Source: Candidatus Curtissbacteria bacterium RIFOXYA1_FULL_41_14
GTDB taxonomy: Bacteria; Patescibacteriota; Microgenomatia; Curtissbacterales; GWA2-41-24
Direction of reading: 5' to 3'
Assembly (NCBI GenBank): GCA_001775095.1
Contig: MFCA01000021.1
Span: 1-32,071 of the forward strand
Length of the DNA: 32,071 bases
Part shown: one piece after another, positions 6,967 to 27,044 of the stretch
Position numbering within the stretch: the first letter of the stretch is position 1
Layout: the number at the start of each line of letters is the position of its first letter
The notes under the pieces: generated by a model
The model's input: the letters and a program-made list of their open reading frames with translations, nothing else
Told to the model about the DNA's origin: nothing
Databases searched by the model: none
Made by a program: the position numbers and the translations under genes

Positions 6967-6979
6967 GTAGTTATTAAAA

Positions 6980-7115
6980 TTCTAAACTCTAGGTTCTAAA
7001 CTCTAAACAATATCAAAATTCAAATGTTCAAAAAATAAATTATTCCAAAGGCTGTTTTGAATTTTGTATTTTAGTAATTTGAATTTGTTTAGGATTTAGG
7101 ATTTAGAAATTAGGA
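6980..7115. repeat. AT-rich intergenic heptamer arrays in inverted orientation
   Basis: The left array has units TTCTAAA, CTCTAGG, TTCTAAA and CTCTAAA (6980-7007). The right array has TTTAGGA, TTTAGGA, TTTAGAA and ATTAGGA (7088-7115). The two are roughly inverse complements, so the stretch could fold back on itself. Similar sequence recurs at 27190-27310 and 31997-32071. It fills the whole gap between smpB and the next gene. Confidence 0.65.
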
Positions 7116-7121
7116 TTTTTC

Positions 7122-18345: not shown

Positions 18346-18516
18346 CCGCTCGGAATAAAATTCTCCTCTTGATTCACCAAAACAAACAATGCTAGTCTAA
18401 TAATAGTTTGTCTTCGCGGGAAATCCGGTGTGAATCCGGAACCCTGTCGGATACCGAATGGTATTTGACAGGGTCGGGTACCGAATGGTACCTGACTGTG
18501 CCGCAACGGTAAGTAC

Positions 18517-18589
18517 CGGAAATCGGAAGCCGGAGATCGGAAATCGGACACTTGTCTGAAATCCGAAATCTGATATCTGAAATCTGGTA
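18517..18589. repeat. Two heptamer arrays inside the riboswitch
   Basis: The first array (18517-18551) has units CGGAAAT, CGGAAGC, CGGAGAT, CGGAAAT and CGGACAC. The second (18555-18589) has TCTGAAA, TCCGAAA, TCTGATA, TCTGAAA and TCTGGTA. They are partly complementary, so they can form a long imperfect peripheral arm. Confidence 0.85.
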
Positions 18590-18712
18590 ATGAGTCCGAA
18601 ATCCGCGAACAACAATCCTCCGTCGCATAAAGCTATGGAGGACAAGTCCCGAGCAGGATACCCGCCCAATAAGCGGATTCCCGTACCAAGTGGTGCAGGA
18701 TAGGAATTTAGG

Positions 18713-21779: not shown

Positions 21780-24700
21780 TTATTTACCAGCCAGTTGCGC
21801 CTGTACTTGGCCAAAGGCCTGCTTGAAAAATTCCAAAATGTATAAAAAGGGCAAAGTCCATGACCCTTTACCAACTTCCAGGGTTGCAACATGCGCAGCT
21901 TCTGCCCAATCCCTCAAATGCCTGACTGTCCAACCTCCTTGCCCTAGAACTGGGATCCAGCTTGGTCCCCAGCCTAAATGTTTTATTTTCAGCTCATGGT
22001 GATATTTCGCGTCTATCCTATTAGTCTGGGCCGAATAGTCCACTACTTGTTCTTTTTCCGCATGGGACATATTGTAGGGCAGCTTATACCATTTTCTCCA
22101 CCATTTGCCGATTTCGAAATGAGCCGGCATTACCAGTTTCATCCAGGGCTTAAGCCGGATCTCCCGCTTAGAATAAAAATTCTCATCGCTGTTGACTTCA
22201 AAAAATTGCTTGGTGTTGGGTGTCTGAAGGTATCTCTGCATCATGTTTGGTGCGAAAGCCTTACCAGTCGCCATACGGTCGAACCACCAGTCACCCATAT
22301 TGAACTTGCTGATATTAGGGTCGTCAACATCAAAAACTTCGCTCCAGTGGACATTCTCAAATGAAACATCACCAAAATCAATCAACTCGGCTGTTGCCCA
22401 ACCCTTGGCGAAACCTCTATCGTCTCCAGCACCATGATCCCAAGTTTTTAAATCTCCACTAAGGGTCCCGATATCCAAACTCTCGTGATTTTCCAGGTTG
22501 GCGATTTTCTGATTGATCTGTTTCTCAAGTGTTAAATCGTTGCCGGTCATGTCAAGAGAAAGCTGATATTTCTCGTTACTCAAATTATCATTGATCAATT
22601 TGACCAGCAGACGATTATTAGGCAGAATATTCCGTCTTTTACCCATCATATGCTTTTGCAAGATATAATTGGTATCCAGATTCCTGCCGAAACGGCCGGC
22701 ACGTCCCCGGGGTTCAAAATGCAAAAACTCGGCATAATGGTCAACGTGCCAGCCCCACCAGCGCCGTGAATCCTGACTTTTGACAACCTCCCCCAGTCTT
22801 TTGCGTCCGCCGAACCAGTTTTTTTCCCGATCCCAAATCCTGATGATATCGTATTCGGAAAATGCTCCCATAGCAAAGGTTAAATTATAGGCATTATTGG
22901 TTACCTGTTTCAATAGTCCCGACTGCTCAAATTCTTCGATCCTCCGGGTAAGCTCTTGTGTTTGTGGCAAAAGTCCTTGGATTCCTTTTTTAAGCTCAGC
23001 TATCAATGCTTCCCGCAGTTCGACTCTTCGTAAATCCAACAAGTCCCGGCTATTATTGTCGACTCCATGGGCGCCCAGAAGCGTATTCTGGCGATACCAT
23101 TCGGCGATTGCTTGTTCCGTATGTGCCATGTTCCTTCCCCATTCTTTTTTAAGATCATAGCCACGTGTTTGCATCCAATCGGCAATCCATCTCTCATCTT
23201 GATCGGCGGAATTCGGATCTAATTCTCCAAGTGTCAACTCCTCAATTTTATTCATCCTGAGTCTTTCTTCTCTAAACCTTTTGAAATACATTGACATTGC
23301 TTTATCCAAAAGATTGAATTGTTGGCCTTGGTGGTCAGTAAATTCGCGATCAAGATGATCTTTGGCAAATCGCTTGAAATAATATTTAAAGGTGACATCT
23401 TTCCAGAGCGGACTGCCAAAGGTGGCTAAAACTTTCTCCGGATTCATTGATTCTCCTTCCATGGTAGTGCGCCAATTATAGATTGCTACCACCGAGTCTT
23501 TATATTCATTGATATCTTTGAGCATATTTTCAGCCTTTTCTTTATCATCACCCTCGAGTTTTGGGATTTGGGCCGTCAAATCATCGGCGATACCAACAAC
23601 CCGCCTAATGGCATCCTCAATCTGCGCTGATGGGGCGTCCTGCGATTCGATAAAGAGCAAATTGCGTTTGGTATTAGTCATCGCTTCCTTCCAATCAAGT
23701 GGTGTCGCCCTTTCATAACCGGCCTGATGCGATCTTCTCATATTTTCAATTTGAACTACGGCCCGCCACGCCAAAAGTCCTTGTTCGCCGCGTAATAACT
23801 CCCGATGGCTTTCTCTGGCTACAGTCTCAAAAGTTTTTTGTTCAGCCTCGGCTATATCCGGCCACCAGCCACTTTGCAGCGACTTATAGTAGGCCGCCAA
23901 ATTCTGCTCTAAAGTTACATATAACTTTGCCAATCCTTGGGGATCTTCATCCTGTTTATCTTTTTCTTTTTGTTTAAAATAGCCATTAATCTGATCACGC
24001 AAGTTAGAGATTTCAGTTCTATCATTGGGATCTATGATACTATCAATGAGGTCCATCTGTCCCGAACCCTCAGCCCTTGCGACGAAATCTTTGATGGTTT
24101 CATCGAGGTTAAAAACAAAACGAGACTCAAAGACCTCGAACTTGGGATGAGTAGAATCGCCGCATTCCCTAGCATGCTCGAAAAGAAACTCTAATGCTTT
24201 CTTCATACCGGAATCACCCGGATTACGAATCAGCCTTTGAAGAATCTCATTGGGTCTGCCTGTCTTCAGGTTCCGTAGGTGTTCTACTAATTCTTCCATA
24301 TCAGATTCCCACTTCTTAGTGTGGAAATTAACCGGGTTAGCCTCCTTTTCAGCATCCAATTCTTTGAGACGTTCGCCGGCTGTATGAGCATCTACCAGAT
24401 AATTGTTTGGCCATTTCGCACCGCCGATGGCAAGTCCTGTTGTTACTTCAAGGTTGGCCGCTTCTTTATACCATTGAATTTTTTGCGCAGGACTTTTTTG
24501 CCGCCAATCGTCGGGCTCTGCCAAATCAACATCAACCCCTGCTTTTTCGAGGAACGTTTTAACCGTCTCCGGCTCCAAATCATCTAGACCATAAAGCTGA
24601 TAACCGTCCTCAACTTTGACAACAGCCGCATTATGCTCGTCATCTTTGTACAAGACGTCTGACTCTGGGAATTGAATTGTTTCCAAAATTTGATTCTTTT

Positions 24701-25181
24701 CCAGCCACAACCTGCGTTTGACAGGACTCCATGGGTCCCAATCAGAAGGTGGTGATTTTCTTACCCCTTGGGAATTAAAAATCTCAGCGACCTCATCTCG
24801 GGACAAAAATTCCAAGGGTTTGTCGGGGTATGAGACTATCGTTGGTCCTTCGGTGTGTTTGACTTCCGGAGCTGCTTCGCGTTGTTTGACCGATTCCCCA
24901 GCTGCTCTCTCTATTATGGCCGTTGCTTCTCTGACCGCCTTTGCCGTGCTTATTGTTGATTCTTTTAATTCCCTCTCTAAATCCCGAACTCGGCGTTCTT
25001 CTTCCTCCCTGCGTCTCGAAGGTTCATGGTCGTGTTTTCTCTCAACTTTTTTATGTTCTTTGTGCGGAGACTTTGACTTCTCAGCTATTCTTTTAGCCGT
25101 GACAACTTCGGGCACGTTATCTGCCTCCCTAACTTCAGGGTATAAGCTTTGCCTGTTAATTGCAACAAAATGTTCGTTCAT
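21780..25181 (-). CDS. Giant unknown cytoplasmic protein on the opposite strand
   Basis: The protein has 1133 residues. The N-terminal 125 residues are very charged, with a predicted coiled coil (REEEERRVRDLERELKESTI, ATAIIERAAGESVKQREAAP). The main body is alpha-helical and rich in Trp, Arg and Glu (DWRQKSPAQKIQWYKEAANL, WWGWHVDHYAEFLHFEPRGR, MLKDINEYKDSVVAIYNWRT). It has no signal peptide and no clear internal membrane segment. The C-terminal 30 residues are amphipathic (WTLPFLYILEFFKQAFGQVQ). No catalytic motif or family is recognised. It converges on the VirB6-like gene with a 12-base gap and sits between two halves of the secretion cluster. It could be a cytoplasmic partner or a substrate of the system; this is inference from position. 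Confidence 0.75.
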   Translation of the reverse strand: MNEHFVAINRQSLYPEVREADNVPEVVTAKRIAEKSKSPHKEHKKVERKHDHEPSRRREEEERRVRDLERELKESTISTAKAVREATAIIERAAGESVKQREAAPEVKHTEGPTIVSYPDKPLEFLSRDEVAEIFNSQGVRKSPPSDWDPWSPVKRRLWLEKNQILETIQFPESDVLYKDDEHNAAVVKVEDGYQLYGLDDLEPETVKTFLEKAGVDVDLAEPDDWRQKSPAQKIQWYKEAANLEVTTGLAIGGAKWPNNYLVDAHTAGERLKELDAEKEANPVNFHTKKWESDMEELVEHLRNLKTGRPNEILQRLIRNPGDSGMKKALEFLFEHARECGDSTHPKFEVFESRFVFNLDETIKDFVARAEGSGQMDLIDSIIDPNDRTEISNLRDQINGYFKQKEKDKQDEDPQGLAKLYVTLEQNLAAYYKSLQSGWWPDIAEAEQKTFETVARESHRELLRGEQGLLAWRAVVQIENMRRSHQAGYERATPLDWKEAMTNTKRNLLFIESQDAPSAQIEDAIRRVVGIADDLTAQIPKLEGDDKEKAENMLKDINEYKDSVVAIYNWRTTMEGESMNPEKVLATFGSPLWKDVTFKYYFKRFAKDHLDREFTDHQGQQFNLLDKAMSMYFKRFREERLRMNKIEELTLGELDPNSADQDERWIADWMQTRGYDLKKEWGRNMAHTEQAIAEWYRQNTLLGAHGVDNNSRDLLDLRRVELREALIAELKKGIQGLLPQTQELTRRIEEFEQSGLLKQVTNNAYNLTFAMGAFSEYDIIRIWDREKNWFGGRKRLGEVVKSQDSRRWWGWHVDHYAEFLHFEPRGRAGRFGRNLDTNYILQKHMMGKRRNILPNNRLLVKLINDNLSNEKYQLSLDMTGNDLTLEKQINQKIANLENHESLDIGTLSGDLKTWDHGAGDDRGFAKGWATAELIDFGDVSFENVHWSEVFDVDDPNISKFNMGDWWFDRMATGKAFAPNMMQRYLQTPNTKQFFEVNSDENFYSKREIRLKPWMKLVMPAHFEIGKWWRKWYKLPYNMSHAEKEQVVDYSAQTNRIDAKYHHELKIKHLGWGPSWIPVLGQGGWTVRHLRDWAEAAHVATLEVGKGSWTLPFLYILEFFKQAFGQVQAQLAGK

Positions 25182-25211: not shown

Positions 25212-25290
25212 AGACTAGTTATAGTGGCAAGGCCATTTGGGGGAATTTTAAAATTAAAGGTCGCTGTTCGTCTTGATATTTAGATAACAA

Positions 25291-25320
25291 TTGGCTTACA
25301 ACAAGACTACGTTCTATAAT
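25291..25320 (+). promoter_or_regulatory. Promoter candidate of the S23 gene
   Basis: TTGGCT (25291-25296), an 18-base spacer and TATAAT (25315-25320) are seen. Transcription would begin inside the octamer array, about 35 bases before the ATG at 25361. Confidence 0.45.
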
Positions 25321-25770
25321 TGTTAAATTGTTGAATTGCTAAATTGTTATATTGTTTAGTATGGCTGAACAAAAATACTTACAGCTAAGTGATATCAGTT
25401 GCTACAAGAAAGCCTTAGCATTATCAAATTATGTCTGGGATATTGTTATTAAATGGGATTGGTTCGCCAAAAGAACAGTTGGGATACAGTCTGTCACAGC
25501 GATTGATTCAATATCGGCAAACATAGCTGAGGGTTTCGGAAGGTATAGCAAAAAGGATAAGATTAAGTTTTACTATTACAGTTTTGGCTCTGTTAAAGAA
25601 AGTTTTGATTGGGACGAAAAGTCGAATATCAGAAAACTCTTAACCAAAAAACAATATGAGCATATTTTAAATGAACTCCAAGCCTTGCCTAAAGAAATTC
25701 ACCAGCTAATAAAATTCACAATGGAGAAACTTAAGGAATAACAATTTAACAATGTAGCAATATAACAATT
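25318..25770. mobile_element. S23 gene bounded by inverted octamer arrays
   Basis: The left array (25318-25357) has units AATTGTTA, AATTGTTG, AATTGCTA, AATTGTTA and TATTGTTT. The right array (25739-25770) has TAACAATT, TAACAATG, TAGCAATA and TAACAATT. Read from their outer ends, the two form 32-base inverted repeats with 27 matches. The unit encloses only the S23-type gene, whose stop codon lies in the right array. No transposase is present. The ends are unlike ordinary insertion-sequence ends because they are tandem arrays. Confidence 0.55.
25361..25741 (+). CDS. Four-helix-bundle protein (S23/IVS, bAvd-like)
   Basis: The protein has 126 residues from the ATG at 25361, the usual length of about 115-130. 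The family signature is clear: SCYKKALALSNYVWDIVIKW, then SVTAIDSISANIAEGFGRYS, KKDKIKFYYYSFGSVKESFD and a last helix NELQALPKEIHQLIKFTMEK. Relatives are encoded in intervening sequences of 23S rRNA in spirochaetes and Coxiella, and a related fold, bAvd, helps diversity-generating retroelements. The stand-alone version in Patescibacteria has no known job. No reverse transcriptase, template repeat or rRNA lies nearby. See the unit at 25318-25770. Confidence 0.9.
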   Translation: MAEQKYLQLSDISCYKKALALSNYVWDIVIKWDWFAKRTVGIQSVTAIDSISANIAEGFGRYSKKDKIKFYYYSFGSVKESFDWDEKSNIRKLLTKKQYEHILNELQALPKEIHQLIKFTMEKLKE

Positions 25771-25775
25771 ATTTT

Positions 25776-27044
25776 ATGATTATTTTCGAATCCACATTCC
25801 CAACTGACTACCGCCGGAGGGAAATCAAACAAATATTAGACTATCTAATAACTGGTAAATTCTGCCAAATTGTCTCTATCTCTGGCGCCGGAAAAGCCAC
25901 AGTTTTGCGGCTTCTTGCCCATAACCGCAATTTACTAAAGTTCCATCTGGGAGAAAAAGAAAAGCCAATTCGAATTCTGGACTTAAATTTGCTTGAACTT
26001 ATAAACTATGATCAGGAACAACTCGCCAAGTTTTTGCTTCTGGCACTTGAGGAAAAAGTACCAAATACCCACGATTATTTGGTTCTGACAAAACAGTTAA
26101 ACGAAGCTGTTGCCAAACTTGCCCTTTCCAAACAAACCTTGATTTTTCTCTTTGATCATTTTGACGAATATCAAAACCGTCTTTCTCGGTCATTCTTTCA
26201 ACTTTTAAGAAGCCTTAGAAGTATTGCCAAATATAAATTTGCGACTGCCTTTGCAACCAGGAGAGATTTGATAGAACTTGTTGATCCTGAGATTTTGAAA
26301 GATTTCTATGATTTTTTCATCGGCAATACTATTTATCTAAAGATCTACGATGAATCTGCCACCCATTTCCTCTTCTCCCAAATTGAGGGGGTTTTTGAAA
26401 AAAAGCTTTCCCAGGCAGATAAAAAAAACATCATAGCCGTCAGCGGCGGTCATATCAAACTTACCAAAATTTTAGCAGAAGCTACTCTTCGAGAAGACAT
26501 TGCTCTCAAAAAAGAAACCCTTCTGGCAACACCAATTGTAGCGGCTACCCTCTTTGAGATTTGGCTCGCCTTAACCGCCCAAGAACAACAAGCCCTCCGA
26601 TCAATTGCCCAAAATAAAGAACCAGCTAAAGATGCCTTGGAAAATCTTATCAAGTTCGACTTGCTAAAAGGAACCGAACAATTTAGTTTCACTATCCCAT
26701 TGTTCAAAGAATTTGTGCTTGCGACAATCCCTACTCTTATACAAGAAAAACTTACATTTAATCAGGACACTAAAGAGATAATGAAAGGGTCAAATGTCAT
26801 CTCTGATTTACTTTCTCCTGCGGAATATCGTCTGTTGCGATTTTTAATTGCCAATCAAGGCCGCATTATCCAGCGTGATGAAATCGTCAAAGCTGTCTGG
26901 CCGGACGCTCAAGTCGTTGCGGGTATCAGTGATGAAGCAATTGACCAACTGGTTTACCGCTTACGCAAAAAAACTGAGGATGATCCTAATAACCCTCAAT
27001 ACACACAAACAGTGAAGGGGCAGGGTTTCCGCTTCCAGCCATAA
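25776..27044 (+). CDS. NTPase with C-terminal OmpR-type winged helix
   Basis: The protein has 422 residues. The N-terminal part (about 1-250) is an AAA/STAND-like NTPase. The P-loop region reads SISGAGKATVLR (34-45), where the usual first Gly is Ser and the Ser/Thr after Lys is Ala. Walker B is LIFLFDHFDE (122-131). A helical segment leads to an OmpR/PhoB-type winged helix (about 340-422): LLSPAEYRLLRFLIANQGRI, QRDEIVKAVW, IDQLVYRLRKKTEDDPNNPQ and TVKGQGFRFQP. Such proteins are ATP-dependent transcription regulators. It may control the adjacent secretion genes. The start is 5 bases after the right octamer array, which therefore lies in its leader. Confidence 0.85.
   Translation: MIIFESTFPTDYRRREIKQILDYLITGKFCQIVSISGAGKATVLRLLAHNRNLLKFHLGEKEKPIRILDLNLLELINYDQEQLAKFLLLALEEKVPNTHDYLVLTKQLNEAVAKLALSKQTLIFLFDHFDEYQNRLSRSFFQLLRSLRSIAKYKFATAFATRRDLIELVDPEILKDFYDFFIGNTIYLKIYDESATHFLFSQIEGVFEKKLSQADKKNIIAVSGGHIKLTKILAEATLREDIALKKETLLATPIVAATLFEIWLALTAQEQQALRSIAQNKEPAKDALENLIKFDLLKGTEQFSFTIPLFKEFVLATIPTLIQEKLTFNQDTKEIMKGSNVISDLLSPAEYRLLRFLIANQGRIIQRDEIVKAVWPDAQVVAGISDEAIDQLVYRLRKKTEDDPNNPQYTQTVKGQGFRFQP

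Follow-up and report, generated by a model that had tools for sequence, protein, structure and literature searches.

The S23 (four-helix-bundle) gene in the 32,071-nucleotide stretch of Candidatus Curtissbacteria bacterium RIFOXYA1_FULL_41_14 analysed here (the window; contig C21 of genome G000) is carried in a short unit enclosed by inverted tandem octamer arrays, and this unit belongs, as the member that bears S23, to a MITE-like family of hairpins dispersed in the genome. Comparison of filled and empty sites indicates that the arrays and the S23 gene arrive together, as one block, in intergenic gaps. It is fairly probable that the unit represents a mobile element consisting of one gene and two inverted-array ends, which enters as a block, with S23 acting on the arms and the enzyme being supplied in trans.

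The components of the unit and its surroundings are compiled in Table 1. The two arms (25316–25350 and 25738–25772) extend over 35 nt with 86% complementarity, and in a second register over 31 nt with 87%, close to the earlier count of 27 matches in 32; the description in the initial annotation of octamer arrays that enclose the S23 gene as reverse complements of each other is thus borne out, as is the placement of the unit directly before the next gene, whose ATG (25776) begins 4–6 bases past the end of the right array. The inverted flank score of the window S23 gene (25.5) was reached by none of its mispairs with the downstream flanks of other S23 genes. The S23 ORF has an alternative start codon, TTG, at 25352. 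No transposase is present within the unit.

Table 1. Features of the S23 unit and its neighbourhood (positions in the window)
Feature	Position	Strand	Basis
Whole unit, ~457 bp (left arm, S23, right arm)	25316–25772	+	Inverted arms and end-to-end RNA fold
Left octamer array (AATTGTTA)n, 4.9 copies	25318–25356	+	TRF, period 8
S23/four-helix-bundle gene, 126 aa from ATG	25361–25741	+	PF05635, 5e-18; TIGR02436 match
Right octamer array (TAACAATT)n, 4.0 copies, overlapping the S23 stop codon	25739–25770	+	TRF, period 8
Conserved stretch 5′ of the −10 box, direct repeats ~11 bp apart	25274–25300	+	Seen in 7 of 7 orthologous loci
−10 box TATAAT in the promoter of the downstream gene; the left arm overlaps it	25315–25320	+	Read by eye, sequences L184–L190
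Downstream gene, C-terminal Trans_reg_C domain and AAA-like part (below Pfam cut-off)	25776–27044	+	Pfam
Upstream divergent gene, 1133 aa, no Pfam match	21780–25181	−	ORF list and Pfam
S23-less hairpin of inverted heptamer-like arrays, arms 58 nt, 72%	6976–7119	+	Found in the same window
Hairpin without S23; its heptamer arrays are similar to the arms of a different S23 unit in the genome (L005)	18513–18590	+	TRF and comparison

The unit is placed in the 5′ leader of the Trans_reg_C regulator gene, and the −10 box of that leader is found in relatives both with and without the unit. The conserved stretch ahead of the −10 box is probably the operator/−35 region of the downstream regulator. It resembles an autoregulatory operator, with direct repeats spaced by ~11 bp ahead of a gene for an OmpR/PhoB-type DNA-binding product, and is kept in seven genomes.

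Inverted flanks are shared by most S23 genes. Genes from the window genome, its family and its class, together with a named collection, gave 196 ORFs in 183 loci, from which 178 were kept after removal of 18 (9 with short flanks, 6 with N, and 3 duplicates), and the 95th or 99th percentile of mispaired upstream and downstream S23 flanks served as threshold. An inverted match above the 95th percentile was found in 142 of the 178 genes (80%), and above the 99th in 88, with a mean score of 19.4 for true flank pairs versus 10.1 for mispaired ones; in the direct orientation, only 33 and 19 genes, respectively, exceeded these thresholds, and 21 of 346 non-S23 ORFs of the same loci (6%) passed the 95% threshold. 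The expectation that other S23 genes carry such ends was therefore confirmed for most of them, and the contrary outcome considered in the initial annotation, other S23 genes lacking them, is not the general case. Among loci collected later, 28 of 38 distinct S23 entries passed the same threshold. The repeat unit varies from gene to gene, and yet the left array matches the reverse complement of the right one; the best period across the 142 arm pairs is 7 in 110, 8 in 13, and 9 in 13.

The window genome contains eight PF05635 matches, seven of which have inverted flank scores of 16–27, each with its own repeat unit, and the eighth (L006) a score of 12.0; in this scoring, 2 of 36 loci were left out as too short. 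S23 genes occur in 14 of the 15 genomes of the family and in 84 of the 109 genomes of the class (77 above the family cut-off). Inverted S23 flanks are also present in isolates, namely Chryseobacterium sp. YIM B08800 (26.5), Aquimarina agarilytica (22.5), Thiocapsa imhoffii (19), and Marinilabilia rubra (18.5), and the surveyed metagenome-assembled genomes are labelled in their records as Planctomycetota, Firmicutes, Acidobacteria, Elusimicrobia, Omnitrophota, SAR324, and others. No significant inverted match was detected for 36 of the 178 genes; S23 flanks without a match include those in Verrucomicrobia (L135 and L154), Lentisphaerae (L153), and Anaerophaga (L137). We rejected the idea that the armless S23 genes are rRNA intervening sequences, as none of the 20 loci scanned has S23 inside an rRNA gene. 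In three loci (L232, L230, and L217) the direct-orientation score beats the inverted one, and an outer inverted arm is discernible by eye in L232. A tblastn search of a phage collection gave no match to S23.

Several loci showed features of their own. In one S23 locus of the window genome (L008, contig C18), 9-mer arrays extend into the S23-like coding sequence and are translated as NLS-like repeats. On cyanobacterial plasmids, three S23 genes (L232, L251, and L246) lie within CRISPR operons, twice in the cas6/cas4 gap, where the two S23 genes are not closely related, and once in a cas10/cmr3-type gap. In genome G004 (contig C24, L070), inverted arrays are missing (score 8.5) around an S23-family gene that lies ~300 bp away from a reverse transcriptase, and this gene is possibly the Avd gene of a diversity-generating retroelement (DGR).

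Sites that are filled in some genomes and empty in others reveal the extent of the inserted block. Site A, on conjugative plasmids of Nostocales, is filled in Trichormus (L231) and Scytonema (L237) and empty in Aulosira (L233), Nostoc linckia (L234), and Microchaete (L235), with flanks ~97% identical. The empty sequence reads AAAAAGTAATTAACAAAT, and the filled one AAAAAGTAAT followed by the unit and GTAATTAACAAAT; arrays and S23 are inserted together, as one block with GTAAT on either side, and no array is left behind in the empty sequences. The same place is occupied by a left array and a truncated S23 gene in Nostoc C052 (L236), and by an S23-less hairpin in Brasilonema (L242). Site B is filled in L225 and L226 and lacks S23 in L239–L241, L238 having inverted arrays without S23. 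Site C is filled in L223 and L224 and empty, with no array, in L247–L249, and site F is filled in L244 and L245 and empty in L262 and L273. Among Patescibacteria, a locus within a single genus is filled in G050 and G030 and empty in G065. (Positions 2975–3300 of L204, also from G050, fall partly into a repeat that occurs dispersed, in dozens of copies, in that genome.) The locus of the window unit itself is filled in the window and in G003 and empty in G001, G004, G007, G008, and G009, in all five of which the promoter is conserved and neither array nor S23 is found.

Empty sites, anticipated in the initial annotation, were thus found at sites A and C, at the Patescibacteria locus, and at the window's own locus; the opposite case that it had allowed for, flanks present at syntenic loci without the gene, was not encountered, since the five gene-less syntenic sites carry no array. 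These empty sites show that the arrays belong to the S23 gene. For the site duplications expected alongside, the picture is mixed: GTAAT at site A is the single clean target duplication, none is seen at sites B and C, the candidate at site F (TTCTA) overlaps the array, and the relatives of the window locus are too diverged from it for a duplication to be read. Recent identical copies at two unrelated places were not found, and movement is accordingly deduced from the patchy presence of the unit. The two S23 genes found at this locus, in the window and in G003, have no close kinship within the family (rank 211 and 212 of 215), which indicates that the leader has been occupied twice or re-occupied.

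The octamers of the window unit recur elsewhere in the genome without S23. A three-octamer pattern has 28 matches in the genome, versus 9 for the reversed control, and besides the S23 unit these octamers form six S23-less inverted pairs of ~65–80 bp (L291, L292, and L294–L297) and two solo arrays (L293 and L298). On account of these six hairpins and two solo arrays, the unit is assigned to a dispersed hairpin family, which also supports the mobile-element half of the initial annotation. Since these ends also occur without S23 at scattered places in the genome, they appear to be what moves, with S23 as the gene of the full-length copies. Plasmids of Nostoc and Aulosira likewise contain S23-less inverted arrays (L275, L276, and L278) and solo arrays (L277, L279, and L280), and AGTCAGG arrays flank related S23 genes in differing surroundings (L243, and L244 and L245). 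To the eye, L276 and L278, both S23-less with AGTCAGG arrays, have an inner sequence in common, which would fit a further, non-coding family with the AGTCAGG ends. Around the second S23-less hairpin of the window (Table 1), the RNA of 18405–18640 has a very stable predicted fold (z-score, −8.65); we take these surroundings to be reminiscent of a cobalamin riboswitch, and an Rfam scan of the segment gave no match up to an E value of 1.

The sequence of the arms is free, and their complementarity is kept. In several pairs of units from one site, the two arms of a unit match each other but not those of the other unit. In the comparison of arms at the same site, for which 216 of 240 ORFs were retained with the filters of the 178-gene survey, the units L200 and L201 have self-match scores of 20 and 16 and cross scores of 14 and 9, with neighbouring sequences 90–95% identical and S23 genes that are reciprocal best matches at 62% identity. 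This pair, together with L204/L205, suggested concerted evolution of the arms in place, but many S23 genes at the same site are not each other's closest relatives. Much of the divergence between arms may come from the exchange of whole units at a site, and, as other same-site S23 genes are clearly unrelated, replacement and in-place change are equally possible. Occupancy of the same site by unrelated S23 genes, which would fit a hot spot of insertion, may stem from a scarcity of tolerant gaps. The S23 gene itself is under purifying selection: dN/dS was 0.02–0.22 in 10 of the 12 pairs that yielded a ratio (17 tried; 5 gave none), the exceptions being L231/L237, with almost no change, and a pair with the truncated L245. 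The term non-autonomous, used in the initial annotation, therefore fits in that no transposase is present, but it sits less well with a gene that is under such selection and looks like the element's own.

The existence of a mobile, hairpin-ended element emerges from these comparisons, whereas the action of S23 on the arms and catalysis in trans are proposed. In the model that we favour, a 7–9-nt unit repeated in tandem forms the two inverted ends, which are free in sequence and each kept as the reverse complement of the other, and this complementarity would let the element close into a hairpin or cruciform. An S23 oligomer is assumed to bind the arrays of the element that encodes it when these are paired, in DNA or RNA form, and may protect them or present them to a host enzyme that cuts and joins. 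Integration would leave a short duplication of ~5 bp, and the S23-less hairpins would be dependants of the S23-bearing element.

Alternatively, the unit may function at the RNA level as an intervening sequence (IVS), with the arms pairing in the mRNA and the unit being cut out or insulated, for example by RNase III, so that the hairpin makes insertion into an operon tolerable. We regard this as rather unlikely, although the RNA of the window unit (25312–25776) is predicted to fold end to end (z-score, −3.84), and the arms span from the upstream stop codon (left arm start, median −4 nt, n = 140) to the next ATG (right arm end, median 5, n = 122; both among 170 armed units), the units thereby filling the gap between adjoining genes. 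A like plan is described for the Coxiella 23S rRNA IVS, which has 428 nt, an S23 ORF, a 28-bp terminal stem, and excision by RNase III (PMC4990558). On the other hand, G·U-type mismatches in the arms are no commoner than A·C-type ones (231 versus 239), which lends no support to a sense-RNA hairpin as the selected feature; nor is a preference for insertion in the sense orientation seen, since co-orientation with the neighbours (148 of 166 and 128 of 156) shows no excess over control pairs (261 of 308). The Rfam matches in the window comprise tmRNA and tRNAs only, and no rRNA. Of the two possibilities raised in the initial annotation, a mobile element or an RNA hairpin, the former is thus supported by flanks, empty sites, and dispersed hairpins, while for the latter the stable fold is offset by the mismatch counts. 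The IVSs of Coxiella and Leptospira do resemble the unit in having a single S23-family ORF, a length of ~430–460 nt, and a patchy distribution (PMC4990558). Their terminal inverted repeats are able to form a long stem, comparable to the 35-nt, 86% complementary arms of the window unit, whose ends pair in the fold. They differ from it in that the window unit lies outside rRNA genes, has tandem 7–9-mer arrays without fixed sequence as its ends, and belongs to a type with many units per genome and S23-less hairpin derivatives. Because of its location outside rRNA, we consider the window unit a variant of the IVS and not a member.

Equally doubtful is a reading of the unit as a conventional MITE-like repeat that has captured S23 as a passenger and owes its movement to some host transposase unrelated to it, such as one of the Y1/RAYT type. 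The excess in the window genome of S23-less hairpins over the S23-bearing copy (6 to 1) would be accounted for in this way, and the numbers of S23 and Y1_Tnp genes correlate across 109 genomes of the class (Spearman 0.37, p = 9e-5, kinship uncorrected). Y1 transposase is present in 79 of these genomes; however, its presence is not significantly associated with that of S23 (p = 0.13), and it is absent from 3 of the 33 genomes with at least five S23 genes, leaving dependence on Y1 with a weak count correlation only. Furthermore, the association of S23 with such ends in 142 of 178 genes is unexpected of a passenger, and ends that share a layout but no sequence make a single sequence-specific transposase unlikely. 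Repeats mobilised by IS200/IS605 or RAYT systems have fixed-sequence end hairpins recognised by the Y1 transposase; the arm sequences here, by contrast, vary from unit to unit, and co-occurrence with Y1 is weak. As for MITEs in general, the unit is like them in its short length, inverted ends, dispersed S23-less copies, empty sites, and absence of a transposase, and is unlike them in that its ends share no conserved sequence between families, its full-length copies contain a gene on which purifying selection acts, and a clean target duplication is seen only once.

It is very improbable that the unit is retroelement-like, with S23 as the partner of a reverse transcriptase (RT). S23 and the DGR accessory protein Avd have a kinship of fold, the four-helix bundle, and RT-bearing genomes have somewhat more S23 genes (5.11 versus 2.84 in the others; Spearman 0.21, p = 0.03). 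RT is, however, found in only 19 of the 109 genomes and absent from 22 of the 33 with at least five S23 genes, and its presence is not associated with that of S23 (p = 1.0), so that dependence on RT is unsupported by co-occurrence. Unlike Avd, the window S23 gene has no RT beside it, the only RVT_1 match of the genome being on another contig (C5). Neither RT nor Y1 is therefore convincing as the mover. Finally, the notion that the arrays are common microsatellites between which S23 happens to lie has next to no probability in spite of the frequent heptamer-like arrays without S23 in the window, since it is refuted by the far lower values for mispaired flanks, direct orientation, and control genes, by the inverted flanks where insertion into a pre-existing array predicts direct ones, and by empty sites that contain no array.

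Two kinds of known intergenic repeat resemble the arms in part. The STRR heptamers of cyanobacteria resemble the S23 arms as intergenic heptamer arrays in Nostocales, here arranged as inverted pairs around S23; their period is 7 nt, unlike that of the window unit (8 nt), and the cyanobacterial S23 arms are mostly of 7 nt by eye. To our knowledge, STRRs are described as single arrays with no assigned origin. In a literature search made mostly outside subscription papers, no publication came up that connects S23 genes to tandem arrays. The TAACTGA repeats of marine Beggiatoaceae and cyanobacteria are also intergenic 7-mer arrays of suspected mobility; in contrast to the S23 arms, almost all of them are direct, and the text of the source mentions neither S23 nor "four helix" (PMC4679880).

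Many bacterial genomes contain annotated S23/four-helix-bundle proteins to which no function is attached, and intergenic heptamer repeats, too, have so far lacked an assigned origin; the present analysis ties the two together, as gene and arrays come as one block. The puzzle of S23 thereby becomes testable, in asking whether the protein binds its own arrays and whether the unit moves, and a possible source is offered for STRR-like repeats. As a wider reading, which we put forward tentatively, free-standing S23 genes across bacteria may be the single gene of widespread, transposase-less mobile elements with ends defined by layout alone, as inverted 7–9-nt arrays of any sequence that stay complementary. 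The S23 oligomer may recognise these arrays once paired, and copies that have decayed or lack S23 may be the source of much of the intergenic heptamer repeats of cyanobacteria and Patescibacteria. The 23S rRNA intervening sequence, so far an oddity of some rRNA genes, would thereby be extended to a broadly distributed element.
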